Assembly (NCBI GenBank): GCA_039679385.1
Contig: JBDKVB010000066.1
Coordinates: forward strand, 1-54,194
Reading direction: 5' to 3'
Source of the DNA: Armatimonadia bacterium
GTDB taxonomy: Bacteria > Armatimonadota > Zipacnadia > Zipacnadales > JABUFB01
DNA length: 54,194 bases
Shown: positions 4,230 to 25,461 of the stretch, one piece after another
Layout: each line of letters begins with the position of its first letter
How positions within the stretch are numbered: the first letter of the stretch is position 1
Notes under the pieces: model-generated
Told to the model about the DNA's origin: nothing
What the model saw: only the letters and a program-made list of their open reading frames with translations
Database searches by the model: none
Position numbers and translations under genes: made by a program

Positions 4230-4522
4230 TATTGGCCTCCAGTCTCTGTATATGGTAACGCGGGCTACAACAATATGGTTCCAGATGCCATGATGCGGCT
4301 ATAGTCGTGGATGTCGTCTTGCACCAGCAGACCCGCACCTCGACCCCCGGCGCCCCCTTCGTCGCAAGTGCCTCCAGTCGAAGGCTTCTCACTTCGCCCT
4401 TCAGCGCTGTCGTCCCTCTCGGTGGCTCTGGCTACCCATATCGGTACCGCTGGAAGGGTTCTGGGCACCCTCCGGCGAAGGTCACAACCAGTACCCAAGA
4501 CATCACCTCCAGGAGCGATCCC
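4230..4522. other. Divergent intergenic region
   Basis: 293 bases between two outward-reading genes, so it should hold promoters for both. On the minus strand a TATACA-like -10 element (4248-4253) lies close to the GTG start, with only a weak TTGTTG-like -35 15 bases before it. I see no convincing operator, riboswitch or RNA gene. Confidence 0.3.
4236..4240 (-). promoter_or_regulatory. Ribosome-binding site that sets a GTG start
   Basis: GGAGG on the minus strand, six bases before the GTG at 4229. No ATG in frame has a comparable site, so it decides the start of the predicted glycoside hydrolase. Confidence 0.7.
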
Positions 4523-5290
4523 ATGGGCAAGATTCCTATCGCACTTCAGCTTTACTCCGTGCGCGGTGAGGTCCAGAAGGACCTCGCAGCGACCCTCAAG
4601 GCGGTCGCCGAACTTGGCTATGAAGGTGCCGAACCGTGGGGCTACAACGGCGAGGCCCTCGAATGGATGGGACATTCGCCGGCCGAGATCCGCCGCATGT
4701 ACGACGACACCGGCCTGACCTGCTGCGGGTTCCATCTGGCGACGTCAGCCCTGCTCGGTGACAATCTGAGCCGGACGATCGAGCTCAACCGAATCCTGGG
4801 CAACCGTTTCCTGGTCATCGCCGCCGACAAGCCTCGCATGAGCTCGCGCGAGACGATCATGGAGCTCGCGGGCATTCTCAACGACGCCTCGGAGAAGCTG
4901 GCCGCCGAGGGGATGTTCTCGGGCTATCACGCTCACGGCTTCGACTTCGCGACGGTTGACGGCGAGATCGCCTGGGACCTCCTGTTCAGCAACACTCGCA
5001 AGGAAGTCATCATGCAGATGGACATCGGCAACTGCGCCAATGGCGGTGGCGACCCCATCGGCACCTTGCGCAAGTTCCCGGGGCGCTCGCGGTCCCTGCA
5101 CCTCAAGGACTTCGGCGGACCTGAGGGCTCGGTCATCGGCGAGGGGAAGGCTGACTGGGACACCATCTTCAGGCTGTGTGATGCGGAGCAGCCGGTGGAG
5201 TGGTATGTCGTCGAGGAGGGTGGCGCTGACGGTCTGGGCTTTGAGGTGTCAGGCCGGAGCCTGAAGGCGCTGCGGGCAATGGGCAAGTAG
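4523..5290 (+). CDS. Sugar phosphate isomerase/epimerase family protein
   Basis: 255 residues, cytosolic, xylose isomerase-like TIM barrel (AP endonuclease family 2 fold). The strand-end metal-ligand pattern is visible: GYHAHGFDF (His136, His138), MQMDIGNC (Asp), HLKDFGG (His193, Asp196) and VVEEGG (Glu). The N-terminal IALQLYSVR is typical of members that interconvert keto and aldo sugars or 3-keto sugars. The start is ATG 4523, with AGGAG at 4511-4515; the reading frame extends further upstream but without support. It converges with the GH31 gene, and a long hairpin separates the two. Substrate specificity cannot be read from sequence. Isomerisation of a sugar released by the neighbouring hydrolases is the likely job. 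Confidence 0.85.
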   Translation: MGKIPIALQLYSVRGEVQKDLAATLKAVAELGYEGAEPWGYNGEALEWMGHSPAEIRRMYDDTGLTCCGFHLATSALLGDNLSRTIELNRILGNRFLVIAADKPRMSSRETIMELAGILNDASEKLAAEGMFSGYHAHGFDFATVDGEIAWDLLFSNTRKEVIMQMDIGNCANGGGDPIGTLRKFPGRSRSLHLKDFGGPEGSVIGEGKADWDTIFRLCDAEQPVEWYVVEEGGADGLGFEVSGRSLKALRAMGK

Positions 5291-5302
5291 TGTACATGCG
5301 TG

Positions 5303-5356
5303 GCACGGAGCCCGGGTGTCGCTTGCAGCCTGGATCAGCGATCCCGGGCGCCGTGC
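5303..5356. terminator. Bidirectional terminator-like hairpin
   Basis: GCACGG-A-GCCCGGG (5303-5316) pairs with CCCGGGCGCCGTGC (5343-5356): 13 of 14 positions pair, with one A/G mismatch. TCGCT/AGCGA can extend it inside the loop. It lies in the 95-base gap between convergent genes ending at 5290 (+) and 5386 (-). There is no T-tract on either strand. Confidence 0.6.
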
Positions 5357-5385
5357 TGTCGAGTGTCATGGTTGCCGGCGTCGCG

Positions 5386-7599
5386 TTAGCGCGTCTGACC
5401 CTCGGGCACGGACGTGCGCAGAACCCCGGTTGCAGCCTCGGCGGTCTCGAGTGACTGCTCCTGCCCGTTCACGAAAACGCGTGTCGCCCCCTCCGGCAGG
5501 TGCAGTGTCAGCTCCCACAACCGTCGCTCCGGCATCCCCTCATACCTACCCACTCGCGGGCCAAGGTCCACGCTGACTTCGCCGTCTCGCTCATGGCAGG
5601 TGATGTGCGTGGTTGCCACCTGTCCCTCGCGGTATGCCTCCGTGATTCCATCGTCCTCGTAGAGCGTGAACCCGCTGTCCTCGTGTGGGAAGATCTCCAG
5701 CCCCATCGTCTCCACTGAGCGCTGGCCCACGTAGTCCATCGGAGGCCAGGTCGGAAGCAGGGCTCCTGCCTTCACGAACAGTGGCCCGCCGCGGTCGGCA
5801 GGGGGCTCATAGCGCAGCTCCTGGGGCCCCTCATGGATCTCGCCCGTCCAGTAGTCAGTCCACTTCCCGGCGGGAAGGTAGATCGTGTCGGTGAAGGCGC
5901 AGGTCAGCAGCCACTCACCCAGCATGTACTGCAGGATCAGCTCGTCACTGCGCGGGTCCTCCGGCGCGACGAGGGGCATGGCCCGCAGGATCGGCATCCC
6001 GGTGCGGTGGGCAACGTGGGCTGCACTGTACAGGTATGGCAGGAGGCGGTAGCGGAGACGGGCGTAGAACTTGAACACCTCGTAGATCTCCGGGGGCAGA
6101 AACCATGGCTGGTTGTACTGGTGCCAGCACAGGATCTGCGACCACGGCTGCAGAAAACCGAAGTGGATGCCTGCCTTGTTCCAGACCTGCATGTCGCAAC
6201 TAGTGTTCGAATGCCCCGAGAGCCCGTGGTTGAGCAGCGAGACCAGCGGCTTCGCATCCCCGCCGGTGTCGCCTGCCCAGGTGGCGGCGTACTGCTGAAC
6301 GCCGGTGTAGCCACCGGCCGTGTAGATCATTGCCCGTCGTGCGGTGTGCTCCACGAAGCCCTGGCTCATCTGCTTCGCCAGCAGGACGGGATACAGGTTG
6401 TGCACTTCGGCGTCTTCCATCCCGTTGCGCCACTTGCGGTCGGGGTGGAAGCAGATCTGGTTGCTGCCATCCATCTTGAAGGCCGCTGCGCCGTTGTCCA
6501 CGAACTTCCGCAGGTGGGCGAACCAGGGCTCTCCCAGCTTCGTGATCCGGTCCTGGTAGGCGGGGTGAAAGTGCGGGTCCTTGACGATGTCCTCGTCGTA
6601 TCGGTCCTCGCTGATGGCCGTCGCGCCGGGCTTGGCGTCCTGCGGCGCGAGCAGTTGCTCCTCGTACTCGGTCACGTCATAGTCGCAACACAGCCATAGG
6701 CTGAGCTTGAACCCCATGTTGCGCAGAGCCGCCGTGAATCCGCCGGGCCTCTGATGAGGCATCCAGAAGGGCTGGTGGAATCGTTCCTTGCTCCACTCCT
6801 TGTTGACCGAGAAGTCGTAGTGGGTCTCCATCCAATCGGGCTCGAGCCCCACGATATCGAGCGGGATCCCCTCGCGCCGGAACATGTGGGCCTCGTACAG
6901 CACATCGCGTGCCCGCACACCGCGCTCATCACACACCCAGGTGAGGCCGTAACCGAACTGTGGCAGGAGCGCCGGTCGGCCGGTGAGTTCCGTGTACCGG
7001 TCCAGCAGAACGGGCAGCGTCTCGCCGACGATCAGGTAGTAGTCGAGTTCGCCCTGGTCCGCCGAGAAGACCAGACGGTCAGCGCAGGTCGCCCCGGCGT
7101 CTACTTGATGGAACCAGGTGCTATTGAGGAAGACGGCCCAGCCACCTGTGCTCATGAGGAAGGGAAGGGGCGCGTAGCTCGCAACATTGCGCACAATCAT
7201 CCGCGTCTGATGCCCGCGCTTGTTGAGCCGGTCGCGCGTCTCGTCGCCAAGACCATACAGGCGATCCTCCGCGGCGAGCGAGAACTCGGCCCGGAAGCCT
7301 TGCTGCGGGCTTGTGGCGTCCGGTTGCCGTACCAGCACGCTTCCGTCCGCGCGGCACAGCCTTGTGCTCCCCGTGTCCTTGCAGACCGTCAGGCTTGCCT
7401 GCCCGGTCGAGAGGGTGAAGGTCGTGCCCTCCTCCGTGATGCTCGCCTCCACTGCCGGCCACTCTGTCCGGAGGATCCCATACCGTACGAGGCCGGCCTC
7501 CCCAAAGCAGCCGTCACGACTCTTGCGCACTCGGAACATATGGGGTGTGATGGCCTCCAGGCGCAGGACCTCGCCATTTGGGAGGGTGATGTCAGGCAC
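5386..7599 (-). CDS. Glycoside hydrolase family 31 (alpha-glucosidase/alpha-xylosidase type)
   Basis: 737 residues from a GTG at 7599. The order is an N-terminal beta-sandwich, a (beta/alpha)8 catalytic barrel and C-terminal beta domains. The nucleophile is Asp377 in FKMDGSNQ and the acid/base is Asp444 in WAGDTGG; both are the GH31 signatures. The region TGRPALLPQFGYGLTW is also characteristic. Retaining GH31 enzymes remove alpha-linked glucose, xylose or galactose from non-reducing ends. There is no signal peptide, so it probably acts on imported oligosaccharides. The frame stays open upstream to 8022, but that extension is Arg/Pro-rich shadow overlapping the opposite-strand methyltransferase. 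AAGGAG at 7606-7611 supports the GTG. The exact substrate is not determined. Confidence 0.93.
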   Translation of the reverse strand: MPDITLPNGEVLRLEAITPHMFRVRKSRDGCFGEAGLVRYGILRTEWPAVEASITEEGTTFTLSTGQASLTVCKDTGSTRLCRADGSVLVRQPDATSPQQGFRAEFSLAAEDRLYGLGDETRDRLNKRGHQTRMIVRNVASYAPLPFLMSTGGWAVFLNSTWFHQVDAGATCADRLVFSADQGELDYYLIVGETLPVLLDRYTELTGRPALLPQFGYGLTWVCDERGVRARDVLYEAHMFRREGIPLDIVGLEPDWMETHYDFSVNKEWSKERFHQPFWMPHQRPGGFTAALRNMGFKLSLWLCCDYDVTEYEEQLLAPQDAKPGATAISEDRYDEDIVKDPHFHPAYQDRITKLGEPWFAHLRKFVDNGAAAFKMDGSNQICFHPDRKWRNGMEDAEVHNLYPVLLAKQMSQGFVEHTARRAMIYTAGGYTGVQQYAATWAGDTGGDAKPLVSLLNHGLSGHSNTSCDMQVWNKAGIHFGFLQPWSQILCWHQYNQPWFLPPEIYEVFKFYARLRYRLLPYLYSAAHVAHRTGMPILRAMPLVAPEDPRSDELILQYMLGEWLLTCAFTDTIYLPAGKWTDYWTGEIHEGPQELRYEPPADRGGPLFVKAGALLPTWPPMDYVGQRSVETMGLEIFPHEDSGFTLYEDDGITEAYREGQVATTHITCHERDGEVSVDLGPRVGRYEGMPERRLWELTLHLPEGATRVFVNGQEQSLETAEAATGVLRTSVPEGQTR

Positions 7600-7605
7600 G
7601 ATGCG

Positions 7606-7611
7606 CTCCTT
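7606..7611 (-). promoter_or_regulatory. Ribosome-binding site that sets the GH31 GTG start
   Basis: AAGGAG on the minus strand, six bases before the GTG at 7599. It rules out the upstream in-frame extension, which would overlap the divergent methyltransferase gene. Confidence 0.7.
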
Positions 7612-7805
7612 CTGGTGAGAGAGAGTTCGTGAGGCAGCAGGACCGGCGCTGAGTTCCTCCTCTCGCCTTATGGCTCCTTCGTCCTTGCACTGGCTGCACG
7701 CGAAGGGCAAGGAAGGAAGAGACCGGCGGTCAGGGCGAATAGGCACCCAGTTCGGGCCGGTACCGCCCCGGCGGAAGCCACCGCGAAGGACCGAACGGAG
7801 GCGAC

Positions 7806-8579
7806 GTGGCAGTGGGCAAGGACATGCACGAGGCGAATAGAAGGGTGTGGGACCGGATGGCACCGGACTGGGCGCAATCAGCTGAGCGTCGTGGCGTCTG
7901 GCGCCGGTGTGTCGCTGACCCCGGCCTGGCGCTTCACGAGCGGGAGTTGGCGCTGCTCCGAGACCTGCGTGACCGCTCGGTCTGCGTGCTCGGAAGCGGG
8001 GACAACGAGGTCGTCTTCGCACTCGCTGGGATGGGAGCGCAGGTCACCTCGGTTGACATCTCCGAGGAGCAACTCGATATCGCCCGACAGCGTGCCGAGT
8101 CGCTTGGTCTGCACATCGCCTTCCTGCGCGCCGACGTGACAGACCTGAGCGCGATACCTGATGGCACCTTCGACCTGGTGTACACCGGAGGGCACGTCGC
8201 GGTCTGGGTCTCAGACCTGCGCACCTACTACGCCGAGGCCACTCGGATCCTGCGCCCCGGCGGACGGCTGGTCGTGAGCGAGTACCATCCCTTCCGGAGG
8301 GTCTTCGGTTCCGCCGAGGATCGCCTGGAAGTCGAGTACAGCTACTTCGACCGGGGTCCGCATCCCTACGACAGCGGCCAGACTGACAGCGCCGGCGACG
8401 ACACGCCACTCGTCCAGTACGAGTTCCATTGGACCGTCAGCGACATGGTCACCGCAATCCTCTCGGCCGGGTGTGTGGTGGATATCCTGGAGGAGTTCGA
8501 CGACGGGCGCGAGGAGTGGGAGACCGCTCCACTCACCGGCTTGCCTCTAGTGCTGCTGATCTCCGGCACCAAGCAGTGA
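7806..8579 (+). CDS. Class I SAM-dependent methyltransferase
   Basis: 257 residues, cytosolic. Motif I is VCVLGSGDNEVVFAL (about residues 59-73). The acidic end of beta-2 is VTSVDIS, FLRADVTDL follows, and FDLVYTGGHV is the motif IV equivalent. RILRPGGRLVVSEYHPF is the motif VI region seen in UbiE-like small-molecule methyltransferases. Two GTG codons, 7806 and 7812, both follow GGAGG (7797-7801). 7806 leaves only four bases of spacing and 7812 leaves ten, so the start may be two codons later. It diverges from the GH31 gene. The substrate is unknown and nothing in the context identifies it. Confidence 0.85.
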   Translation: MAVGKDMHEANRRVWDRMAPDWAQSAERRGVWRRCVADPGLALHERELALLRDLRDRSVCVLGSGDNEVVFALAGMGAQVTSVDISEEQLDIARQRAESLGLHIAFLRADVTDLSAIPDGTFDLVYTGGHVAVWVSDLRTYYAEATRILRPGGRLVVSEYHPFRRVFGSAEDRLEVEYSYFDRGPHPYDSGQTDSAGDDTPLVQYEFHWTVSDMVTAILSAGCVVDILEEFDDGREEWETAPLTGLPLVLLISGTKQ

Positions 8580-8639
8580 CCTCCTGCACCGGGGAAGGGT
8601 ATCTGACGACCCTCGGCGAAAGCGCGTGTGGCGGTCCTT

Positions 8640-8668
8640 AGGCAAGGGTTGTGAAGGCACCCTTGCTT
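8640..8668. repeat. Inverted repeat before the DUF1284 gene
   Basis: GCAAGGGT (8642-8649) pairs perfectly with ACCCTTGC (8659-8666), and one wobble and one further A-T pair extend it to 8640/8668. The loop is nine bases. It sits eight bases before the ribosome-binding site of the next gene, so it is either the end of the methyltransferase transcript or a leader structure. Confidence 0.45.
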
Positions 8669-8686
8669 CCGGAACAGGAGGCGACC

Positions 8687-9124
8687 ATGCGCGCAAGGCC
8701 CCACCATCTGATTGACATCATCACCCAGTACGGCGCGGGACAGCCCTTTGAACCCAGCGCGTACGGCCATGCGGTCCACACTGTGGCGGCGAAGGTGATC
8801 GCTGATCCCACGGTGGCTATCGAGTTCGGCATCGGCGCCGATGACATCTGCGCTCCCTGCAAGCATCTGGTCAAGGGGCGCTGTGATGATGTCATCGGCG
8901 GCTTTGATCCGCCCGTCTCGAAGCACGATTACAACGATGCGCTGGATGTGCGCCTGCTGGAGTTCCTGGGGATGGAGGAGGGGCAGGTCATGAGCTTTGC
9001 GGAGTACCTCGGGGTGTTGCGCAGCCACCTGGAGGGGCTCGCGGAACTGTGCCACTGGCCCGGTGAGGAGCCCCAGGTGAGACAGCAGAAGCTGGAGCGT
9101 GGGCTGGAGAAGCTGGGGGCGTGA
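8687..9124 (+). CDS. DUF1284 domain-containing protein
   Basis: 145 residues, cytosolic. It opens with MRARPHHLIDII, the RPHHL motif that defines DUF1284, and continues with GADDICAPCKHLVKGRC. That is the family's Cys-x2-Cys...Cys cluster (plus HH), which suggests metal or iron-sulfur binding, and DVRLLEFLGMEEGQ follows. The family is small and its function is not established. The start is ATG 8687, with AGGAGG at 8676-8681; upstream in-frame codons precede the ribosome-binding site and are rejected. It is followed after 46 bases by the DUF6259-type gene in the same direction, so cotranscription is possible. Confidence 0.85.
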   Translation: MRARPHHLIDIITQYGAGQPFEPSAYGHAVHTVAAKVIADPTVAIEFGIGADDICAPCKHLVKGRCDDVIGGFDPPVSKHDYNDALDVRLLEFLGMEEGQVMSFAEYLGVLRSHLEGLAELCHWPGEEPQVRQQKLERGLEKLGA

Positions 9125-9170
9125 GGGCGGAGGTCGAACACCCAAAGCCAGATGAGAAGGATCGAGAGCT

Positions 9171-11312
9171 ATGGATAGCAGTGCGATGTGTGTCTGTCGG
9201 GAGAAGGGGACGGGCGAGATTCGGCTGGAGGACGCCTCCGGGCTGGTCGCTTTGTTCTCCGGCCAGGGGCAGCTCTTGGGCCTCGGACGCGAAGGCTGTG
9301 CCTGGAACTTCAACGCTCCGTGCTTCGGCTGGTCCTTGCGTACGGAGTGGGACTACAAGAAGCCTGAGACCTTGCGGCCATGCGGTGCCGCTCGGGTTGT
9401 ACAGCCCGATGCGACGCACCTGCACCTGGAGTTCGACCGTCTGCAGTACGATGACGGCCGGCAGGTCGAAGCTTCCGTGGCGTTGGAGTGGGAGTTGGTC
9501 GACGGCCTGCTCCAGGGACGCCTAGAACGCGTCGAGCTGCCGGAGGGTCTCAAGCCCGCTGCCCTCAACTTCCCGGAGGTGCGCGTACCGTACACCAGGG
9601 GCGCACAATGGGTGGTTCCGCTTGACCTTGGCATGCTCGTGGACGAGCCGCTGAGTCAGGCCCTTGACGCCGAGGACATGAGTGCCTACCGGCGCGAGTG
9701 GACCCACATGCAGATCACCGCCTGGCTGTGCGAGGGCATCGGACTGCACCTGGACGCGCGCGACGCCGACGGCTGGATGAAGGCGGTTCTTCTCCGCGTG
9801 GGACAGGGAACCGCTCAGCTCTGCATCGAGCACCTGCTTCCGCAGCCGACCTCCGGTGCCCAGGAGTTCCCCGGCTATCGCGTGTCGCTGGCTCCCTTCG
9901 TCGGCGGCTGGTATGAGTCCGCACAGATCTACCGGCCCTGGGCAATCCAGCAGCAGTGGGCCTCACGCGGGCCAGACCAGCGGCGTGGCACCTATGTGGC
10001 CGAGTTGGCCTGCTGGCTGTGGCTCCGCGGGCGCATCAGCAACGTGTGCCCGGTGGCCAAAGAGGTCGCACGACGCCTGGAGTTGCCCGTGGCCCTTGAC
10101 TGGTACTGGTGGCACAAGCATCCCTACGACACGAGTTACCCCGACTACTTCCCACCACGCGAGGGCACTGACGCCTTCCGCGGCGCCGTGGCCGACCTGC
10201 AGCAAAACAACGTCAGCGTTCAGGTCTACACCAACGGCATGTCCTGGGACCATGACGAGCCACGCTGGGAGACCGAAGGTCGCAAGTGCACGACCGTGTT
10301 GCGCGACGGCGAATACTGGGGCGTGATCTACAACACGTGGATGAACCGCCGCCTGATGCACACCTGTGGCGCCGCTGAGGGATGGCATCGCCAGGCTCTG
10401 ATCACCGCCGACGGCGGGGCCGCCCTGGGCCTCAACGGCCTGTACATGGACCAGATCGCCATCGTCGGCGGCACGACCCCGTGCTTCAGCACGGAGCACG
10501 GCCATGTGCCTGGTGGCGGCTGCTATGGTGTGCAGGGGTTCCGGGAGTTGTTCCGCAAGGTCCGGGAGCGCCATCCGAATCTGGTGCTGAGCAGCGAGAG
10601 CGTCTCCGAGGTCTACCAGGACCTGCTTGACGCCTGCATCACGCTGCAGACCAGTTTCGAGGCATCAAGGGGTGCTCGCGGCTGCAAGGGCGCAGACCTC
10701 ATCCCGCTGTTCCACGCCATCTATCATGGGCACGCCGTCGTGTTCGGCAACTACTCGCACATCGACGGCATCACACCCTACGATGAGCTGTGGCCTGAGG
10801 AGGCCCGTCCCGATCCGACCGAGGAACGTAACTGGCACGCGCTGTGCCCGGACCAGTTCGCGCTCGACATGGCCCGTACCGTCGCCTGTGGCTGCCAGCC
10901 CTTGGCCACCAATCTCACCGCTGCACACCTGAGCAACCCCGAGTTGGCCGAGGACATCGAGTTCTTCCTCGAGCTCAGCCGCTTCTACCACGCCCATCGC
11001 GAGTGGCTGCTGTGGGGCGAGATGCTGTCGCCCGACTCCCTGGATTGTGAGACCATCGACGTGAGCTGCATCCAGCGGACCATCTTCACGCGCCCCTCAA
11101 CCATCGAGCCCTTCACTGTTCAGCGCCCGGCAGTCCTCCACAGCGCCTGGCGTAGTCCCGACGGAGCTGCAGGGCTCTTCCTCGCCAACTACACGCGCTC
11201 CGAGCAGACGGTGACAATCAGCCGCAAGGACGGCCTGGTCCCAGCGGACGGCCAGTCCACCGTGACTCTGACGCCTCGGGCCCTGCGTCTCGTCCCTCTT
11301 GCTGTCGCCTGA
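9171..11312 (+). CDS. DUF6259-type glycoside hydrolase-like protein
   Basis: 713 residues with no signal peptide. Residues 1-290 are beta-rich, like the N-terminal domain of GH36/GH97-type enzymes. A TIM-barrel-like region follows, opening with ALDWYWWHKHPYDTSYPDYFPP. The most striking segment is LYMDQIAIVGG (Met426-Asp427-Gln428) followed by STEHGHVPGGG; the same MDQ...HGHxxGxG pattern recurs in the gene at 16263. LVLSSESVSEVY then supplies a candidate second carboxylate. The C-terminal 80 residues form a beta domain. DUF6259 proteins are thought to be carbohydrate-active, but no activity is established. The start is ATG 9171, with AAGG about ten bases upstream. It ends against a long hairpin shared with the convergent gene. 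Confidence 0.75.
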   Translation: MDSSAMCVCREKGTGEIRLEDASGLVALFSGQGQLLGLGREGCAWNFNAPCFGWSLRTEWDYKKPETLRPCGAARVVQPDATHLHLEFDRLQYDDGRQVEASVALEWELVDGLLQGRLERVELPEGLKPAALNFPEVRVPYTRGAQWVVPLDLGMLVDEPLSQALDAEDMSAYRREWTHMQITAWLCEGIGLHLDARDADGWMKAVLLRVGQGTAQLCIEHLLPQPTSGAQEFPGYRVSLAPFVGGWYESAQIYRPWAIQQQWASRGPDQRRGTYVAELACWLWLRGRISNVCPVAKEVARRLELPVALDWYWWHKHPYDTSYPDYFPPREGTDAFRGAVADLQQNNVSVQVYTNGMSWDHDEPRWETEGRKCTTVLRDGEYWGVIYNTWMNRRLMHTCGAAEGWHRQALITADGGAALGLNGLYMDQIAIVGGTTPCFSTEHGHVPGGGCYGVQGFRELFRKVRERHPNLVLSSESVSEVYQDLLDACITLQTSFEASRGARGCKGADLIPLFHAIYHGHAVVFGNYSHIDGITPYDELWPEEARPDPTEERNWHALCPDQFALDMARTVACGCQPLATNLTAAHLSNPELAEDIEFFLELSRFYHAHREWLLWGEMLSPDSLDCETIDVSCIQRTIFTRPSTIEPFTVQRPAVLHSAWRSPDGAAGLFLANYTRSEQTVTISRKDGLVPADGQSTVTLTPRALRLVPLAVA

Positions 11313-11336
11313 GCCCATGCCCCTGCGAAGCGACCA

Positions 11337-11377
11337 CGCCCGGACGGACAGGCAGTTGCTGTCTGTCCGTCCGGGTG
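11337..11377. terminator. Strong bidirectional hairpin between convergent genes
   Basis: A 19-bp stem (11337-11355 with 11359-11377) has only two G-T wobbles and a three-base TTG loop. The core reads CCCGGACGGACAG. It is the strongest inverted repeat in the window, lies 24 bases past the stop at 11312 (+) and 26 bases past the stop at 11404 (-), and has no T-tract on either side. Confidence 0.75.
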
Positions 11378-11403
11378 AAGCGAATCCCCGTCACGGTTCG
11401 CGT

Positions 11404-14400
11404 CTACTTGTCTTCCGCAGGCTGCCAGAGGTCGAGGTCGTCGAACCAGATCGTGCCACTACCCCCGCCCTTGGCGTCGATGTAGAAGGCCGCTGTAGCC
11501 GCGCCGGCCGGAATCGACTCCGCAGGTAGCACCGCCTCCACGAGTGTCCAGTCCGTCGTGCCGCTCGGCAAACGTCCGAGGTCTGGCAGTACCCGCCAGC
11601 CCGTCTCCAGTTCGCCCACCGGACCAGTCGCGGCCAGGCACCAACTCCCCAGCCACTTGTCGCCGAAGAAAGCCACGTTCAGGGTCACCAGACCGCCTGC
11701 AAGGTCGCGACTGCGTGCCCAGGCACGGACCTTCATCGCGCGCCCGGCCGTCGGGGTGATATGCCAGTGGACGAGCCGACGGTCGAAGGGGCCCTCCAGG
11801 CGTAGGCTGCCCAGTCCCGAGTGGCTTACTGCAGCATCCCACGAATAGGGGCTTGTGCGTTCGGGCGTCCACTGCGACAGCCCGGGCGCCTGCAGCCCGC
11901 CATCCCTGAGCAGATTCGGCGCACCGATGCTCACGGCCAGCTCGCGCTCAACCACGAGAGGTGTGAGCAGTCCCATGCTGCCCCGGGCGAAGCGGGCCCT
12001 GACGAGAACCACTCCTGACGCGCGGTCCGTCTCCGCGTCAGCCGAAAGTACGACCGTCCGCGTGCCATCCTCTGCCCTGGTCACCTGGGTAGTCACGGCA
12101 AGATCGGGTGAAGGCTCGGCGGTGACGTCGGCCTCCCTGGGAGCCTGCACGGAGACACCCGCTTTGTCTCCCGGAGACAGCGCGACCTGCGCCGTCGACA
12201 GGCTCACCGACTGCTGCACCCGAACAGCCGCCGCCATCTGTGCGCTGCCCTGTACGTACAACGGCCCATGCGAGAGGTCGAGGCGCAGATCACCGGCGAG
12301 ACCTGCTGCCACGGGATTCGTGAAGGCGTCCCGAACCTGCAGACGCTCACTGGCCAGACAGCCAAGCTCCGTTGCCGGAACCTGCGCAGCACGCTCGGGA
12401 TGATCGGCCCAGACAACCGCCACGGGGCCGGCGAAGGACACCTGGTGCAGGCCGAGGTCCTGATCTGACGCTCGTCGGCCGCCAATCTCCGCACGTCCGA
12501 GACACTCGCGACCGTCAAGCTCGTGACTCACACCTGCCAGTGCCGCGTAGGAGAGCTTCGGCAGGAAGCCCAGGTACAGCACGCCGATCCCGGCGTCCCA
12601 GGCCCAGCCCGACTCGTGGGCGGAATCGCGCGGGTCGTACGTGCAGAACCAGAAGGCCTTCATGCGCGGGTCTTCGGACAAAGACAGGGCGTAGTTGGCG
12701 GTCAGCACGCTCGCCTGCTTCAACTCCGAGCACGAGTACTTGCGCGAGTACTCCGGGCTGAAGTCATAGGCGGTCGCGCCAAGCTCATTGATCCACAGCG
12801 GCTTGTCGCCCATGCCATAGCGGGCCAGCATGTCCCGCCGTTGCTTGACGGCGGCACTGTAGCCGCTCGGCGCTGCGTAGCTGTGAATCGTCGCGATGTC
12901 GAAGTAGTCTTTCGCCCCCAGTTGCCCGACTCGTTCCAGCCACTCCATGTACCCCGCGTGCGACAGCCCCAGCACCTTGCAGTTGGGGTCGGCGGCTTTC
13001 GCCGCTTCCCAGGCAGCCTTCAGCACCGCCACATAGTGCGCGCCGGAGTGGCGCGTCTGCTCCTGCCACATGAGGTCCGGCTCGTTCCAGACCTCCCAGT
13101 ACTGGATGCGGTCCTTGTACTGGCTGACCAGTCGGCGGACGTAGCCTGACCACAGTCCCAGGCGTTCCTCCGGCGGAGCCCTCCAGCCCGCGTTCCCTGT
13201 GACCCATTGCGGCGCGTTGAACAAGATGGCCTGGTACTCCATCCGGTAGCTCTCCATCCGGCGCAGGGCCGCGTCGAGAGCCCGAGTGTCCCAGACATCG
13301 GCAGTGGGCTGTTGCACGGACCACACGTTTTCCCAGGCCAGCCACGGCCGGATCCAGTGCACGCCCGCCTGGGCCATCAGGGGCACCTGGTAGGCATACC
13401 ACCAGATCTGCTGTTGGAAGATATTCATGCCGATCGTCGAGGCATCGGGGTCAACCTGACGCGGAGTCGGGACACGACAGACTCGCAGCGTCGCGGGCTG
13501 AGGCCCTCCTTCTGCTACCAGTTCGAAGACGCCGAAACGCTCCAGGGGCAAGGTCAGCGTAGTGTCGGTGCAGGACCTTGCGTCACAGGAGAGAGTCTGC
13601 GTGCCGTGCCAGAGGGTTTTCCCCGTGGCGTAGTCCCTCAGCTTGAGGTCGAGTTGGCAGGTCTGTGCAGCGCCGGGGCAGAGCCCGGTCAGGGTAACCC
13701 TCACCGGCTCCGCCCCACTGAAGACATGCCCGACATGGTTGGTGGTCAGTCTCACCTGCAGCCCCTCACCACCCTCAGGAACCAGCTGCAGCAGGCAGGG
13801 CTTGTCGCCGACCATCAGGTACATCGCCGCCAGGTAGCGGTCGCCGGTGGTGGCCGGGCCGAGCGTGATGTCCCGAAGCTCGCACTGGTACACGCCGCCC
13901 TGGGCTTGACGTGCGACAACCGTGCAGGCGAGGTACGGCTCCTCGATGCGGAACCAGGACTGGTCGCCCTCACTCCTCAGAGGCGCCGCCACGCGCAGAG
14001 TCGCGTGCTGCAGGTCGTCGGGGAACTCGGGGTCGCAACACAGATAGGCAAGCCGCAGGGCGCCCTGAGATGCGCCCGCGAAGGCCTGCGCAGACACAGG
14101 ACCAGGCAGCTCCAGGCGCTGGCCCAGAGCATCCGGGAACCGCCACTGCCCGCGCGCAAGGTCCAGTAACTCCACCGTGAAGGGCTGCAACGGGAGCGGG
14201 ACTCGGGGTGCCTCGACGCTCTCCGGGGGCAGCGGGGTACCCAGTACCGGCAAGGCCACAGCAGTGATCGGCCCAAGGCTGACTTCCTGCGGACCGCCGG
14301 TGTTGCCCTGCCACTCGCCGAAGCAGAGGCGCACCTGCGTGGTCTCGGCCAGGACCAGGTTCCCGTCGCGGGTTCCCAGAAGCGGACCGGTCTCGCGTGG

Positions 14401-16117: not shown

Positions 16118-16262
16118 TCTGGCGAAATGGGAACCCGCGCAGGAAGGGCTTCCGGCAGGACTGCTCAGATACCAGGGGGAACCTCATCCAGGTTGTGCGA
16201 GGAAGGCCGCGCCGAAGCACGTGCGATCCGTCGTGCCGCTCGCCCCACAAAGGAGACCAACC

Positions 16263-18524
16263 ATGCTCTGGGCCCTGCCGCTCCTGATGACGATGAGCCT
16301 CATGGAGACGAAGGCACAGGACACAGTCCTTCAAAGCGACGCGCTGACGCTGACGTTACGATCTGCGCCTGCAGTCCATGTCGCGGGCCTGACGCACCGT
16401 GCAAGCGGCGTCAACCTTGCCGTCGACTCTGCGCCGGTGCCGCTCTTCTCGCTTTCCCTTGGGCCGGAAGGTCCTGACGCCATCACGCTCACGAGTCTCG
16501 AGGCCAAGCGCAGCGGCGTCTCTGTTGAGTCCGTGCCCGAGGGCCGGCGTGCCACGCTCACCTATGGCGACTTCCCCGTGGCCGGAATCACTGTGACTGT
16601 GCGAGTGACGGTGCCCGCAAAGGGGCCGCTCACCACCTGGAGCCTGAGTCTGCACAGTGACACGCCCCTTGAGGTGCGGTCCGTGCGCTTCCCACAGCTC
16701 GCGGCGCCGCAGGCGATCGGCGACTCTGCGGACGATGTCTTGGTGGTTCCGACCTACCCGGGTGCGCTGATCCGCAATCCTGTCGCCGCCTGGAGCGCCA
16801 ACCAGTCGCTGTCGATCCGCTATCCCGGCGAGATGTCCGCGCAGTTCGTCGCCTTCCAGGATACGAGCGCGGGGCTGTACCTGGCGAGTCAGGACTCCGG
16901 GGCCAACCTGCGCCGACTGACCATACAGCGCCAGACCACGGGCTTCGGTCTCACACAGGAATACGTGGCTTCCACGGGCAAAGTCTCCAATTGGGAGACG
17001 CCCTATCCCTGTGTGGTGGGCGTTACGCAGGGCACCTGGCACGACACCGCCGACCTGTACAAAGGCTGGGCGGTGCAGCAGGCGTGGTGCAGCCGCACCC
17101 TCGATCAGCGCGCAGACATCCCCGATTGGTGGAAGGCCGGGCCACTGGTGCACGTGTGTGAGGTCCGCACCTATAAGGACGGCGTTGAGTCGGGCTCCTA
17201 CTATCCGAAGCTTGTGGAGCACGTGAACACTCTTCGCACGAAGACCGACAGCCCCATCGTTCTGATGCTCGCAGGCTGGGAGCACTTCCGCCGGTGGTCA
17301 GCCGGCGACTACTTCCCGATCTTCGACCAGGAGGCTGCGCGCCCGGTCATCTCGCAGCTTCGCGCCGAGGGTGTGCGGCCCTTTGTCTTCCTCTCCGGCC
17401 TGTTCTGGACGCATCTCAACGAGGGCAACAATGGCAACACGCCACCCGTGCCTGAGGAGTGGAAGCCCTCCTTCGTCCGTGATCTCAAGACCGGGGAGCT
17501 CCAGAGCTTCGTGCTCAATGAGTCCCGCCCCGGCGGCACGTGGAGACGTCACTCCTACCAGTTCTGCGTCTCTGCCCCTGGAACGCGGACCTTCCTCCAC
17601 CAGGTCGTTGACCGCGCTCACGAGGAGGGCATTGACGTCGTGCAAATGGACCAGACCACCTCGGGGGGTGGGGCCGCTTGCGGCTCGCCGGACCATGGCC
17701 ATCCCGTTGGCCCAGGCGTCTACCAGACCCGCGATTTCCTCTCGCTCCTGGCGGACATGCGCGCCTACGGGAAGAGCAAGTCGCCGGACTCCGTGCTCTT
17801 CCATGAGGAGCCGCACGAGGAGCTGATCCCTGTTCTCGACGGCTTCCATGTTCGCGAGTACAAGGAGCGTTTCTGGTATCGCGGCACACCCGGCGCTGTG
17901 GGCATCCCTCTGTTTGACTATCTGTACCACGAGTACGCCATCGGTTACGGAGGCGACAGTTGCCCGATCGCCACGCGGAAGGACCCGTGGAACACCCGCT
18001 GCCATGCGGTCAACCTGATCACCGGCCGCACGCCGGGCGTCTCGGTCTGGGGTAGCCAGTCGGTCGTGGCGGACTGCGACCCGGACCCGATGACCGTCAT
18101 CCGCCAACACACCCATCTGCTGCAGCGCGGGGGAGAGCCCTTCCTGATGCTCGGGAGGATGCTGCACCCGTTGCGGCTGCAGGTGCCGGAGATGACCTAC
18201 CAGATCAGTGTGCAGGGCAAGGACGGCTGGCACCGGGAGCCCTTCGTCGAGCCTTCCGTCCTCACGAGTTCTTGGCAGGCCGCCGACGGTCGCATCGCCC
18301 ATGTGTTCGTCAATCCGACGCCGGAGGCCCGTGCCCTGACTGTGGGCCTCGATACCCGGAACCTCCCGACATGGCCTGCTGCGGAGGTACAGTTGTACAG
18401 CAGCGCCGAGGGCGAGCAGTTCCGTCAGGTTGCCGCGTCCAGTTCGCTGCCCTTCCACCTTGAGCGGCAGATCGCGCCGCTGGAGGTGCTGTGCGTGGTA
18501 CTCAAGCCGGTGCCGGCGAAGTAA
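16263..18524 (+). CDS. Secreted DUF6259-type glycoside hydrolase-like protein
   Basis: 753 residues. A short signal peptide (MLWALPLLMTMSLMETKAQ) indicates export, unlike its relative at 9171. An N-terminal beta-sandwich covers about residues 20-270. The barrel-like region then carries VVQMDQTTSGGG (Met462-Asp463-Gln464) and SPDHGHPVGPG, the motif pair shared with the 9171 gene. VLFHEEPHEELIPVLDG adds possible catalytic carboxylates, and a beta-rich C-terminal domain closes the protein. ATG 16263 follows AGGAG (16251-16255) at seven bases; codons further upstream in frame are not supported. The family is carbohydrate-related with no proven reaction. A hairpin follows the stop directly, so the next gene may be separately transcribed. 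Confidence 0.78.
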   Translation: MLWALPLLMTMSLMETKAQDTVLQSDALTLTLRSAPAVHVAGLTHRASGVNLAVDSAPVPLFSLSLGPEGPDAITLTSLEAKRSGVSVESVPEGRRATLTYGDFPVAGITVTVRVTVPAKGPLTTWSLSLHSDTPLEVRSVRFPQLAAPQAIGDSADDVLVVPTYPGALIRNPVAAWSANQSLSIRYPGEMSAQFVAFQDTSAGLYLASQDSGANLRRLTIQRQTTGFGLTQEYVASTGKVSNWETPYPCVVGVTQGTWHDTADLYKGWAVQQAWCSRTLDQRADIPDWWKAGPLVHVCEVRTYKDGVESGSYYPKLVEHVNTLRTKTDSPIVLMLAGWEHFRRWSAGDYFPIFDQEAARPVISQLRAEGVRPFVFLSGLFWTHLNEGNNGNTPPVPEEWKPSFVRDLKTGELQSFVLNESRPGGTWRRHSYQFCVSAPGTRTFLHQVVDRAHEEGIDVVQMDQTTSGGGAACGSPDHGHPVGPGVYQTRDFLSLLADMRAYGKSKSPDSVLFHEEPHEELIPVLDGFHVREYKERFWYRGTPGAVGIPLFDYLYHEYAIGYGGDSCPIATRKDPWNTRCHAVNLITGRTPGVSVWGSQSVVADCDPDPMTVIRQHTHLLQRGGEPFLMLGRMLHPLRLQVPEMTYQISVQGKDGWHREPFVEPSVLTSSWQAADGRIAHVFVNPTPEARALTVGLDTRNLPTWPAAEVQLYSSAEGEQFRQVAASSSLPFHLERQIAPLEVLCVVLKPVPAK

Positions 18525-18570: not shown

Positions 18571-21513
18571 ATGCGTGCTACACAACCTTCTGTCTCAGTC
18601 TTCCTGGTCACCCTCCTGCTGCTGTGCGAGGGGCATGTCCTGAGTGCTCCCGCTCCGGTGATGGAGTGGCGTCTCGATGCTACCCAGGTCACAGGCCAGA
18701 GCGTGAAGGCCTCCGTCGGCGGTCTCGACGGCACGGCAGCAAAACCTGCACGCTTGTCTCCCTCGCCCGCTTACATGGACTTCGACGGCACGGAGTCTGT
18801 ACTCGTCAGGCCAAAGGGCGAGGCAGTCAACCTGCCTGCCGAGAAGCTCACGGTCGAGGTCTGGGTGGCTCTTCGCGAGACCTGCGAATGGGGCGGCTTC
18901 ATCGGCTACTTCCAGGACAACGGGACCTTCGAGAAGGGTTGGGTGCTGGGTAACCGCAGGGGTAGCTTCTCCTTTGGGCTGTCCAGTAAGGGCGCCGACG
19001 ACGGTAATGGCGCCATGACCTACCTTCTGGCCTCCCAGCCGGTGCCGCTGCGGAAATGGTGTCATGTGGTCGGCACTTACGACGGCTCGTCGCTGCGGAT
19101 CTATGTGAACGGAGAGCTCTCGACCTCCTCGGAGGCGCAGAAGGGTGACCTCCTCTACGCGCCGGCAGACCTGATGATCGGCGCCTACAAGGACGACGAC
19201 GAGTTCAACTGCATGGATGGCGCCCTGAACCTGGTGCGCCTCTACGATACCGCGCTGACAGCGGAGGAAGTGCGGGAGCGATACGCGAGCACGCGCCAGG
19301 CCTTCGATAGTGCGCCACCACTTGCGGTCGCAAGGCCGGTTTTCGAGCCGATCCTGGTGGATGGTCCCTGGGCAAGCTTCGGCCCGCAGGGCGTGGCGAC
19401 CCTACACTGGGACACGAAGAAGCCCTGCCCCAGTGTACTGAAGTTCGGCAAGCAGGGAGACGCTCCGAAGGACATCCGCACCGAGGCGCTGACGTGCTCG
19501 CACAGTGTGCGGCTGGAAGGTCTGGAGCGGAACACGGCCTATAGCTACTCGATCTGTGTCCCCCTGGGTGACTCTCTAACGGAGACGCCGGCCTACCCGC
19601 TGGACACTCAGTTCGACTACTCGCCCTCGCCACTTCCCGCGGGGGCCGAACCGTACCCACCAGGCGCGACCGATGACCTGTTCGCCCGGGCCGCCGAGTT
19701 CATCCTGCGCGACAGTGGCATCGACCGGGGCTACTGCCTTGACCTGGGTTGTGGCGACGGGAGACTTGGCTGGGAGATCGCCCGCCGCTCCGGACTGAGG
19801 GTGATAGGCGTCTCGACCGATGCCGCAGCCGTGGCTCGTGGACGGGAGGCGCTCCTTGCGGCGGGATGCTACGGTCCGCGGTTGACTCTCCACAAGCTCG
19901 ATAGCCTCTCGAACCTCCCCTTCGCCGACTATACCTTCAACCTTGTCATATCCAACGAGGCGTTGGCCTCGGGAGCCGTTCCCGGCTCGGCTGCGGAGGT
20001 GTTCGCCAGGCTGCGTCCACTCGGTGGGAAAGCCTACGTGGGCGCTCCTGCCGCAAGTGAGACAGCGTTGCAGGCATGGTTGCGTGGGGCTGATGGGGCC
20101 GACCGAGCACCGACTCCAGCCGTGGGCACCACACCTCCACCACGCGATCCTGTCAGGCGCTTGCAGGACGGCCCGGGCGGCCGGTGGGCAATCCTTGAGC
20201 ATCGTGAGGCTCTGCCCGGGGCCGGCGAGTGGACCCACGCCTACGGGAACGCCGCTCAGACCGCCGGCAGTGGAGACTTCCTTGTCTACGGCACCACGGG
20301 CGACAACCTGGAAGTCCAGTGGTTCGGCCTGCCGGGACCCAACGCAATGGTGGATCGCTTGGCCCGCAAGCAGGGGCCCTTGTCTACCGCGGGTAGGCTC
20401 TTCACGCTCGCCAACGACCGCATCATCGCCCAGGATGCCTACAACGGAACGATCCTCTGGTCGACGGAGATGCCTGGGCTGCTGCGCAACAACCTTCCTC
20501 GCAACACGGGCAACGCCTGTGCGGACGATAGGCACCTGTTTGTCGCAATGCGCGACCGGTGCTGGCGCCTCGACACCGCCACCGGTCAGCGCGACTTCAG
20601 CTACCCGGTGACCGAGGGCCAAAGCGACGAGGAGATGTTCTGGGGCTACGTGGCGTGCACCGGCGGTGTTCTGGTGGGCAGCGCCGTCAGGAGAGGCAAC
20701 TTCGAGACCGAGTACAAGGGCCCCAGGTTCTGGTTCGATGGACAGACCGGGCGGGACGTGCTCAATGTCTGTAGCGACAGCCTGTTCGCCTGCGCCATCG
20801 ATGACGGCACCCGTCTTTGGACCTACTCCGGTGGACTTGTGATCAACTCGACCCTCGCCATGAGCGGGGGCAGACTCTACTTTCTGGAGAGCCGTGCCCC
20901 CGAGGCGCTGGAAGCTGTCAGCCGACAGCTCGGAGCCCCCTTGTGGAGCGACGTCCGCCTGGTGGCACTCGACGTGCACACCGGAAAGGTCCTCTGGACA
21001 CGCCCCTTCGAGCATCCCGAGCAGCCCATCGTGGTCTACTTGCTGTGCGACGCGGAACGGCTTGCCGTGGTGAGCTCCTTTGGGGGCAAGTACCGCCTGC
21101 GGACCTTCTCGACCAGCGACGGAGCCGCGGGCTGGCAGGCCGAGGACCCCTGGCGCACCAACAACCACGGGCACCACATACAGCACCCGGTGCTCACGAT
21201 GGGACGGCTATTCCTGGAGCCCCACGTCTACGACTGGGAGACGGGCAGCAAGCTCGACCTCACCTTCCCCGGCAGGTCGAAGTGCGGGACGATCACGGCG
21301 GCCGCCACCTTGCTGCACTACCGGGACCTCAGCGACGAGGTGTGGAACCTGACCACGAACACCCAGAGCGAGTTCAACCTGCTGCGGTCTGGGTGCTGGA
21401 TCGGGATGATCTCCGGCAACGGTCTGCTCATGTCTCCCGAGTCCGCCGGCGGCTGCACTTGCCGCTGGCCAGTCTACACGTCGCTGACCTACCGCACGAA
21501 GAACGACTACTGA
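18571..21513 (+). CDS. Secreted LamG / methyltransferase / PQQ-propeller fusion protein
   Basis: 980 residues. The N-terminal signal peptide is VSVFLVTLLLLCEGHVLSA. A LamG concanavalin-like domain follows (about 31-235; KLTVEVWV, WCHVVGTYDG, RIYVNGEL). Next is a fibronectin/purple-acid-phosphatase-N-like beta domain (about 255-345; LEGLERNTAYSYSI). Then comes a class I SAM methyltransferase domain (about 365-550) with motif I DLGCGDGRLG at Asp391-Gly397 and FADYTFNLVISNEAL. From about residue 553 a PQQ-like beta-propeller runs to the end (repeated AxDxxxGxxLW elements such as DAYNGTILW and DVHTGKVLW). Cytoplasmic-type methyltransferase chemistry behind a signal peptide is odd, since SAM is not expected outside the cell. 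ATG 18571 is preferred over 18565 because AAGGAG (18558-18563) then sits at seven bases. Confidence 0.8.
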   Translation: MRATQPSVSVFLVTLLLLCEGHVLSAPAPVMEWRLDATQVTGQSVKASVGGLDGTAAKPARLSPSPAYMDFDGTESVLVRPKGEAVNLPAEKLTVEVWVALRETCEWGGFIGYFQDNGTFEKGWVLGNRRGSFSFGLSSKGADDGNGAMTYLLASQPVPLRKWCHVVGTYDGSSLRIYVNGELSTSSEAQKGDLLYAPADLMIGAYKDDDEFNCMDGALNLVRLYDTALTAEEVRERYASTRQAFDSAPPLAVARPVFEPILVDGPWASFGPQGVATLHWDTKKPCPSVLKFGKQGDAPKDIRTEALTCSHSVRLEGLERNTAYSYSICVPLGDSLTETPAYPLDTQFDYSPSPLPAGAEPYPPGATDDLFARAAEFILRDSGIDRGYCLDLGCGDGRLGWEIARRSGLRVIGVSTDAAAVARGREALLAAGCYGPRLTLHKLDSLSNLPFADYTFNLVISNEALASGAVPGSAAEVFARLRPLGGKAYVGAPAASETALQAWLRGADGADRAPTPAVGTTPPPRDPVRRLQDGPGGRWAILEHREALPGAGEWTHAYGNAAQTAGSGDFLVYGTTGDNLEVQWFGLPGPNAMVDRLARKQGPLSTAGRLFTLANDRIIAQDAYNGTILWSTEMPGLLRNNLPRNTGNACADDRHLFVAMRDRCWRLDTATGQRDFSYPVTEGQSDEEMFWGYVACTGGVLVGSAVRRGNFETEYKGPRFWFDGQTGRDVLNVCSDSLFACAIDDGTRLWTYSGGLVINSTLAMSGGRLYFLESRAPEALEAVSRQLGAPLWSDVRLVALDVHTGKVLWTRPFEHPEQPIVVYLLCDAERLAVVSSFGGKYRLRTFSTSDGAAGWQAEDPWRTNNHGHHIQHPVLTMGRLFLEPHVYDWETGSKLDLTFPGRSKCGTITAAATLLHYRDLSDEVWNLTTNTQSEFNLLRSGCWIGMISGNGLLMSPESAGGCTCRWPVYTSLTYRTKNDY

Positions 21514-21537: not shown

Positions 21538-22920
21538 GTGAGAAGAGAATCGCGGATGACAGGGAACCTACCTGGTCGCGCCCGGCCTCTGGTCTGGGGC
21601 ACCCTTGTGCTTTTCTCGGCTGCCCTGGGTTGGGCCGAGGACTGGCCGACCTACAACCACGATGCCCGGCGTAGCGGCACGACGGCCGAACGCCTCAGCG
21701 TGGCCTCGCTTGGGCTGCGCTGGACGTATGAGTCCAGCGTCCCGATTCAGCCTGCCTGGCCTGGGCCGGCCCCGAGGGACTTCTACAACTCACCCACTGT
21801 GAACAACGCGGACCGACTGGACCTCGATGCTGTGTTCCAGGTTGCAGCGGTGGGCGACTGTGTGCTATTCGGCTCGCCCTCGGAGGATACTCTCTGGTGC
21901 CTCGATGCGAAGACCGGTCGCCCGAGATGGCACTTCGTGGCCGATGGACCGGTGCGGTTCGCCCCGCACGTCGTCGACGGCAGAGTCTACTTCGGCGCCG
22001 ACGACGGAGTGGTGTACTGCCTGGCCCTGTCGGACGGTGCGTTGCTGTGGCAGACGCCCATCGCGCCCAGCGCTCACAAGGTGCCCAGCGATGGTAAGCT
22101 GGTCTCTCTCTGGCCCAACCGAAGCGGCGTCGTGGTCCGGGATGGCGTCGTCTACTGCGCTGCCGGTGTCTTCCCTGCGGAGGGCGTCTATGTCTGCGCT
22201 CTGGACGCCCGCCTGGGCTCTGATACCGGCCCGGGGCTCTATCGTGAGCGGTTCATCGACATGTCACTGCAGGGCTACGTGCTGGCCTCGCCCGAGCGAG
22301 TCTACTTCCCCGGTGGCCGCTCGGGACCCTGGGTCTTCACTCGCCTTTCGGGGGAACGCAAGGGTCAGTTGGGTGGCGGCGGCGGCACCTATGCCGTGGT
22401 CTCTGAGGACGACTCCCTGATCTACGGGCCGGGCAAGACCTCGGCAACGCTTGAGGAGTTCCGCGGGTCTACGCGCGACAACCTTGCTGCCTTCCCCGGC
22501 GGTCGTCATATCGTGGTGACACGCGACTGCAGCTACGTCGCCACCAGCGCTGAGCTGATCTGCATCGACCGGACGCGCTACCTGCAGATCGGAGCCGAGA
22601 TCGCCGCACTCGATGCTGAGCGCAGCAAACAGAAGCGCGGCACCGCCGAGTACGACGCCCTCACACAGAAGATCGCCAGGGTCGCCGAAGGGCGAGAGGC
22701 CTGCTACCGGTGGCGAGTGCCTACGGACTGCTCCGACTGCCTGATCCTGGCCGGTACGAACCTGTTCGCCGGAGGAGTTGGCAAGGTCGCCGCCTTCTCG
22801 ACCGAGGACGGTGCCCAGCTGTGGCAGGCTCCCGTCGAGGGCGTCGTGAAGGGCCTCGCAGTCGCGAACGGACGCCTGTTCGCGAGCACTGACAAGTCAC
22901 GCATCTACTGCTTCCAGTAG
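21538..22920 (+). CDS. Secreted PQQ-like beta-propeller protein
   Basis: 460 residues. The N-terminus is a signal peptide (VWGTLVLFSAALGWAED). WPTYNHDARRSGTT is the typical first PQQ-like blade, and SEDTLWCLDAKTGRPRW and ALSDGALLWQTP are later ones. About 350-390 residues in, a polar helical segment rich in Glu/Lys/Arg (IAALDAERSKQKRG) interrupts the blades; a CSDC pair follows. Such proteins resemble BamB and the propellers of quinoprotein dehydrogenases, but no dehydrogenase residues are visible. The start is GTG 21538 (GGGAG nine bases upstream); ATG 21556 is possible. Only 24 bases separate it from the fusion gene before it, so the two are probably cotranscribed and may act together at the cell surface. 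Confidence 0.8.
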   Translation: MRRESRMTGNLPGRARPLVWGTLVLFSAALGWAEDWPTYNHDARRSGTTAERLSVASLGLRWTYESSVPIQPAWPGPAPRDFYNSPTVNNADRLDLDAVFQVAAVGDCVLFGSPSEDTLWCLDAKTGRPRWHFVADGPVRFAPHVVDGRVYFGADDGVVYCLALSDGALLWQTPIAPSAHKVPSDGKLVSLWPNRSGVVVRDGVVYCAAGVFPAEGVYVCALDARLGSDTGPGLYRERFIDMSLQGYVLASPERVYFPGGRSGPWVFTRLSGERKGQLGGGGGTYAVVSEDDSLIYGPGKTSATLEEFRGSTRDNLAAFPGGRHIVVTRDCSYVATSAELICIDRTRYLQIGAEIAALDAERSKQKRGTAEYDALTQKIARVAEGREACYRWRVPTDCSDCLILAGTNLFAGGVGKVAAFSTEDGAQLWQAPVEGVVKGLAVANGRLFASTDKSRIYCFQ

Positions 22921-24516: not shown

Positions 24517-24534
24517 CCAGGGCGCATGCCCTGG
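24517..24534 (+). terminator. Hairpin abutting the stop codon
   Basis: CCAGGGC (24517-24523) pairs perfectly with GCCCTGG (24528-24534) around a GCAT loop, beginning at the base after the TGA. No T-tract follows. It probably ends or protects the transcript of the fused phosphoesterase gene, leaving the next gene to its own promoter in the remaining ~138 bases. Confidence 0.55.
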
Positions 24535-24672
24535 AGGGCTCCGGGGCACGGTTGCGCAAGACGCCTCGTCACACTGGAGAAAACGCGGCAGGAGCTCTCG
24601 GCCTTGCGGAAGCGAAGGGAGTCTGCGTCCCCCGGGCTCGGCAACCCAAGGTGCGTCAGGGGGATCCGCCCG

Positions 24673-25461
24673 ATGACCGATCAGCTCGGCACAATGCTCA
24701 CGCGCTGCAGGACCTACACTAACCTCGACGATCTCGAGGCCCGTGATACCCTCTTCGCCACGGGCGAGCGGTACGATGCCCTGGTCCGTCTCCTCCGCTT
24801 CGGTGTCGACCAACTCCAGGAGGTTCTGGCGGTCGGTCGCTATGAGTACGTGGCGGAGCACGTGGTGGGGAAGAAGGTCGTTGACTGCGCGAGTGGGGCA
24901 GGCTATGGGGCGTCGATCCTTGCTCAACGCGGCGCTGAGAGCGTGCTTGGGATCGACCTCGACCCAGCTACAGTGGGCTACGCGCAGAAGCACTACGGGA
25001 GGTCGGGGACGCTGCGCTTTGTGCAGGGCGATGCCCTGGCGCTTGGCAGCCTCCTCGTCGAGCCGCCCGACTGTGTGGTGTCCTTTGAGACGCTTGAGCA
25101 CCTCCCCGAGGCTGGGAGCTTCCTGGATGGGGTCCGTGAGGTCCTGATGCCGAGGCGCGGGACGCTATTCCTCTCGTGCCCCATCGCCAGCGCAATGGAC
25201 GGCGACAATCCCTACCACCTGCACGACTTCACCCCCGAGGCTTTCGCTTCACTGGTCCACGAGCGCTTCGCCGAGGTGACCCTCATCACCCAGTTCTACG
25301 GACTGCGGCCCGGTCTGCGGAAGGTTGGGCGTCTGTCGCGGGTCCTGCGGAACGCATGGATGGGACCGCATGCGGGGATGTTCCCGGCAGACGAGGTCGC
25401 TTGGGCTCGCAGGACGCTCTGTCATCCCTTCATCCAGATCGCGATCGCCCGGAACCCCTGA
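24673..25461 (+). CDS. Class I SAM-dependent methyltransferase
   Basis: 262 residues, cytosolic. The SAM-binding motif is VVDCASGAGYGASIL (Asp71 onward), then SVLGIDLDPATV (beta-2 acidic residue), FVQGDALAL, and CVVSFETLEHLPEAG. This last segment is the motif IV-V region typical of methyltransferases acting on sugars, lipids or nucleotides linked to the cell envelope. PRRGTLFLSCPIAS is the post-motif strand. ATG 24673 follows a purine-rich GGGGGAT. The long upstream in-frame extension overlaps a hairpin and has no family similarity. The acceptor is unknown. It converges with the heparinase-like gene. Confidence 0.85.
   Translation: MTDQLGTMLTRCRTYTNLDDLEARDTLFATGERYDALVRLLRFGVDQLQEVLAVGRYEYVAEHVVGKKVVDCASGAGYGASILAQRGAESVLGIDLDPATVGYAQKHYGRSGTLRFVQGDALALGSLLVEPPDCVVSFETLEHLPEAGSFLDGVREVLMPRRGTLFLSCPIASAMDGDNPYHLHDFTPEAFASLVHERFAEVTLITQFYGLRPGLRKVGRLSRVLRNAWMGPHAGMFPADEVAWARRTLCHPFIQIAIARNP

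Follow-up and report, generated by a model that had tools for sequence, protein, structure and literature searches.

The stretch of DNA analysed here (the window, 54,194 nucleotides) carries on its forward strand a gene at 18571-21513 whose frame is open, without stops, and whose translated product has 980 residues. The predicted protein joins an export signal, a LamG domain, an Ig-like domain, a class I methyltransferase (MT)-like domain and a PQQ-type propeller (p2, 'WTH'), and the next gene encodes a second propeller (p1, 'DWP'). The features of both genes are collected in Table 1. The pair belongs to a tight run in which the gaps to neighbours are 46, 24, 57 and 9 bases. Other neighbours in the window encode UxuA, two DUF6259 proteins, a heparinase-like Hepar_II_III protein and GH42M. 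The DUF6259 genes lie at 9171-11312 and 16221-18524 (both +, E 1e-73 and 4e-38), the second of them just upstream of the MT gene, and two genes past p1 the same run includes a class I MT that stands alone and is apparently cytoplasmic (24526-25461, +). At related loci with the same split arrangement, only the MT-p2/p1 pair recurs, not the rest of the run.

Table 1. Features of the MT-propeller gene and of the downstream p1 gene (positions in the window)
Feature	Residues	Position	Strand	Basis
Signal peptide	1-26	18571..18648	+	Sequence; hydrophobic leaders in homologues
LamG / Laminin_G_3	86-234	18826..19272	+	Pfam E 2.6e-23
Ig/Fn3-like domain (purple acid phosphatase N-domain type)	~262-345	19354..19605	+	Weak Pfam; model strands
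Class I MT-like domain	~365-550	19663..20220	+	Methyltransf_25; AlphaFold2 model; structural match
Motif I LDLGCGDGRL, intact in the window copy	390-399	19738..19767	+	Sequence
'WTH' PQQ-type propeller p2	554-967	20230..21471	+	p2 HMM E 2e-76; PQQ_2; fold match
Cys array at the C-terminal end of p2	C905, C942, C962, C964	21283..21462	+	Conservation
'DWP' propeller p1, separate gene 24 bases downstream	35-460 (HMM match)	21538..22920	+	p1 HMM E 5e-125

A preliminary description, made from the letters alone, had proposed that all five elements stand in one 980-residue chain, and the reading frame, the Pfam searches and the structure models agree on this. The N-terminus, MRATQPSVSVFLVTLLLLCEGHVLSA followed by PAP, has the typical look of an export signal as judged by eye, and a hydrophobic leader near the N-terminus is found in almost every homologue whose start is intact. 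The purple acid phosphatase N-domain match is weak in the window protein (276-330, E 0.007) and clear in the homologues L034 (6e-8), L088 (1e-5) and L030 (3e-6). The profile search that had been suggested for residues 365-550 gave Methyltransf_25 at 390-485 (E 7.1e-10, above the curated cut-off), and PQQ_2 was matched with an E value of 1.3e-14.

When the MT domain was modelled alone with AlphaFold2 (mean pLDDT 77), all seven strands of an MT appeared in class I order, and the model is structurally closest to class I MTs (3dlc, VIA Z 15.8, rmsd 3.4, 168 residues). Prediction of the whole chain, the other structural check proposed earlier, was only partly informative: built on three sequences, the model is poor (mean pLDDT 51, too low to judge domain contacts), although the propeller is still visible over 589-975, where it matches YncE (Z 18.3), tetrathionate hydrolase (17.2) and BamB (16.8).

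The nearest relative, at 57% identity, was found in a Ca. Zipacnadia metagenome-assembled genome of the Armatimonadota (JALGSS010000122.1), and the MT-propeller core occurs three more times in the genome of the window itself (contigs C101, C118 and C177). With a threshold of E 1e-15, a profile of this core matched 40 of the 291 genomes sampled from the phylum, in some of which the match is confined to standalone MTs or to a short segment. The modules were defined by three HMMs, those of the two propellers trained on 16 fused members and that of the MT domain on the family alignment, and 51 members were searched with them. By these profiles the window gene is a member of an Armatimonadota family of predicted exported proteins composed of p1, an MT-like domain and p2; its MT domain scores E 2e-70 and is followed by the p2 match given in Table 1. 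The order p1-MT-p2 is found in 38 members and MT-p2-p1 in 8 (seven of them in G260), while the remaining 5, which form the clade of the window gene, are split, with MT-p2 lacking p1 in the chain. MT stands directly before p2 in 51/51 members, so that p1 is the mobile module. A role of the MT domain as a rigid spacer between two propellers was rejected, as it stands first in 8 members. In L030 and L032 Pfam gives no MT match although the domain is present. One further member, L038, has a 2443-residue open frame (2302-9630, +) with ~765 residues of unknown content before p1-MT-p2; the first part of this frame may be an out-of-gene reading.

Neither gene reaches the curated cut-offs for BamB (TIGR03300, 285 bits) or PQQ-dependent alcohol dehydrogenase (TIGR03075, 480 bits): the MT gene stays far below them, at 13.9 and 13.8 bits, and the p1 gene scores 48.8 and 21.4 bits, respectively. 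The fold of p2 and its DxxTGxxxW-type blade motif are those of the PQQ-type propellers (BamB, tetrathionate hydrolase, PQQ dehydrogenases), from which it differs by its own WTH start and by the C-terminal Cys array. All four cysteines of this array are present in 42/42 members of the main group, and C905, C942 and C962 also in 6/6 of the permuted group; they possibly form disulfides or a metal site.

The downstream gene carries a leader of its own, ending in AEDWPTY, and its product aligns to residues 36-483 of L030, the fused paralogue on contig C101 (E 3e-94). In 4/5 split members (the window, L034, L010 and L088) p1 is the adjacent downstream gene, and in the fifth, L033, the contig end cuts off the downstream side. 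The earlier suggestion of a surface complex formed by the two propellers is strongly supported at the level of sequence, because the next gene is p1, which is fused to MT-p2 in 46/51 relatives. The order of domains within the MT gene also recurs in related genomes, as had been proposed as a check: it is the same in L088 (genome G066), in L010 and in L009/L033, and on contig C101 p1 stands in front of that same order. A frameshift or an assembly error that fused unrelated genes is refuted by these independent loci together with the fused paralogue of the same genome, and its probability is practically negligible.

In full-length relatives the second propeller starts with DWPTY, and the leaders often end in AxA directly before a DWPTY. 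Companion domains that bind glycans are also found among the relatives: LamG, Malectin (3e-11) and CBM96 (1e-16). That the leader is uncleaved or unused, and the protein an ordinary cytoplasmic MT, is very improbable given leaders in nearly all members, these companion domains and the invariant Cys array. The neighbourhood of the split pair in L034 includes a gene (8317-12000, -) whose product combines a hydrazine synthase alpha middle domain (E 5.6e-21) with F5/8 type C domains.

An MT domain in an apparently exported protein raises the question of its chemistry, since no SAM pool is known outside the cytoplasm. The residues of the domain were compared between the 51 family members and 22 standalone MTs of the same genome. 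The motif-I acid is kept in 8/51 family members versus 21/22 controls (Fisher p 7e-11), and the β4 position holds Asp in 4/51 (Asn in 36) versus Asp or Glu in 22/22 (p 6e-15); as the sequences compared are related, these p-values treat them as more independent than they are and serve only to rank the contrast. By comparison, the ribose acid at the end of β2 (Asp/Glu) is present in 43/51 versus 22/22, and the loop glycines are found in 49/51 (first), 35/51 (middle, versus 19/22) and 47/51 (last). The family pattern is consistent with a domain that no longer transfers methyl groups but retains its fold and perhaps some of the nucleoside pocket. Two standalone MTs deserve mention on their own account. 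L107 (window 7806-8579, +), with the odd motif I VLGSGDN, is the sole control of the 22 without the motif-I acid. L115 (G000:C157:23849-24133) resembles the exported domain (ARQTQMKVYCLDID, FADLVFS), keeps the canonical acids and is possibly a close cytoplasmic relative of it.

The window copy is among the least decayed of the family. Its DLGCGDG is intact and conforms to the (D/E)xGxGxG pattern, while the FD motif of β4 has Asn457 instead of Asp. Asp444 aligns with the motif-II Asp of MitM in a phmmer alignment whose gap placement is uncertain there, and the position reads D/E/P/P/P across the split clade of the window. The ribose position is Ser415, which need not mean lost SAM binding, as the closest solved MTs (MitM and glucose O-methyltransferase) also have Ser there. 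In L088 the motif is DYGCGNG and the ribose position is Asp. Our reading of METHYLTRANSFERASE is that the family would be a pseudo-methyltransferase family and that the window member could still bind SAM, because motif I, the aligned Asp and Ser415 are kept. The proposal that the domain has lost catalysis and serves as a scaffold is supported for the family, by the motif-I acid and the β4 Asp, and is not proven for the window copy with its DLGCGDG and Ser415. The scaffold may also bind a ligand, as the same proposal had it, since 43/51 members have the ribose-contact acid.

An active methyltransferase that uses SAM outside the cytoplasm would account for the full motif I in the window copy and in L088 and for the close matches to active SAM enzymes. 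We nevertheless consider it quite improbable: the motif-I acid is missing in 43/51 members and the β4 Asp in 47/51, motif II varies even within the window's own clade, and no extracytoplasmic pool of the cosubstrate is known. Rather unlikely, too, is a repurposed Rossmann module that would serve outside the cytoplasm to sense or capture a nucleoside-type ligand (SAH, adenosine, NAD or a breakdown product). The conserved ribose acid and the first and last loop glycines speak for such a nucleoside-ligand module, as does the nature of the lost motif-I acid, the one that usually contacts the methionine part of SAM. Against it, the middle glycine is less well kept, the adenine-contact Asp is not conserved, and the β2 acid also starts a helix, so that its conservation may be structural.

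A tree of the MT-p2 core places the LamG-bearing and split members in one clade (support 100/98), in which the fused L030 (p1-LamG-Ig-MT-p2) is sister to the five split members (100/99). The next sequence outside is L035_9927, fused and without LamG. The tree is midpoint-rooted and the direction of change is therefore inferred; the MT-p2-p1 members have long branches and their exact placement is unsure. In the simplest reading, fusion came first, LamG and Ig were then inserted between p1 and MT, and p1 was finally separated and reordered. The fused p1-MT-p2 ancestor would first have acquired LamG+Ig in the position seen on contig C101; a tandem duplication that then lost its outer pieces is one way in which p1 could have been separated and ended up downstream. 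LamG is absent from L034, which we read as a later loss. L010 (JAACEL010000265.1), titled Nitrospiraceae, groups with L088 inside the Armatimonadota clade (100/99), by mis-binning or transfer.

We consider it probable that the MT gene and the p1 gene each encode one half of a three-module protein, and that this protein is exported and serves as a glycan-associated scaffold in which the MT module is a pseudo-methyltransferase. Because the next gene is the p1 module, the pair would represent a single machine that was divided and rearranged: one half the propeller p1, the other a pseudo-methyltransferase fused to p2, here with LamG and the Ig-like domain in front. Both products would reassociate outside the cytoplasm into the assembly of the fused relatives. 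In it the MT domain would persist for its fold, packed against p2; it would not methylate, but may still bind a nucleoside-like ligand. The predicted exported location, LamG, and the malectin and CBM96 domains of relatives point to extracellular glycans as the target, and the UxuA, DUF6259, heparinase-like and GH42M genes place the pair among genes of glycan metabolism. The assembly may belong to the cell's machinery for degrading glycans and bind or handle polysaccharide outside the cell; sugar binding itself is probable from the companion domains only. Conservation of the ribose acid seems to exceed what a purely structural role needs and would argue against a pure scaffold. Unlikely in our view is a widespread exported machine of two propellers and an MT fold that would act extracytoplasmically on SAM or a nucleoside-type ligand, with chain ends so close together that permutation and splitting are tolerated.

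METTL14-type pseudo-methyltransferases retain the MT fold as a scaffold after loss of catalysis. The family resembles them in this retained scaffold, and no closer homology is claimed; METTL14 differs in being an intracellular RNA-binding partner of an active MT. With the class I SAM MTs (Methyltransf_25/11; MitM, D-glucose O-methyltransferase, MMP1179 3dlc), the family domain shares the seven-strand fold and, in the window copy, motif I as well as the Ser that MitM has at the ribose position. Unlike these enzymes, it is apparently exported and joined to a propeller, shows no extra substrate-binding cap, and has eroded methyl-transfer residues. Planctomycetes proteins named 'PQQ-binding-like beta-propeller repeat' presumably have an N-terminal MT, and this MT-propeller order would resemble that of the G260 members.

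A literature search found no paper describing the p1/MT/p2 family, and the main text of the Zipacnadia paper (PMC10290634) mentions neither propellers nor methyltransferases. No relatives were found in viral contigs. A plasmid search gave none for the window protein and, for its relatives, only partial propeller or malectin/NPCBM matches. All the folds are known; as far as the searched literature goes, the combination of an exported, eroding MT joined to p2, with two permutations and a split pair, is undescribed.

MT folds are usually read as a sign of cytoplasmic SAM chemistry. In this family the fold is apparently exported throughout, always joined to p2, and is losing its SAM residues; a methyltransferase annotation would therefore mislead. 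The family is also a natural example of a three-module protein for which both two circular permutations and a split into neighbouring genes exist, and the predictions that follow for its assembly are directly testable.
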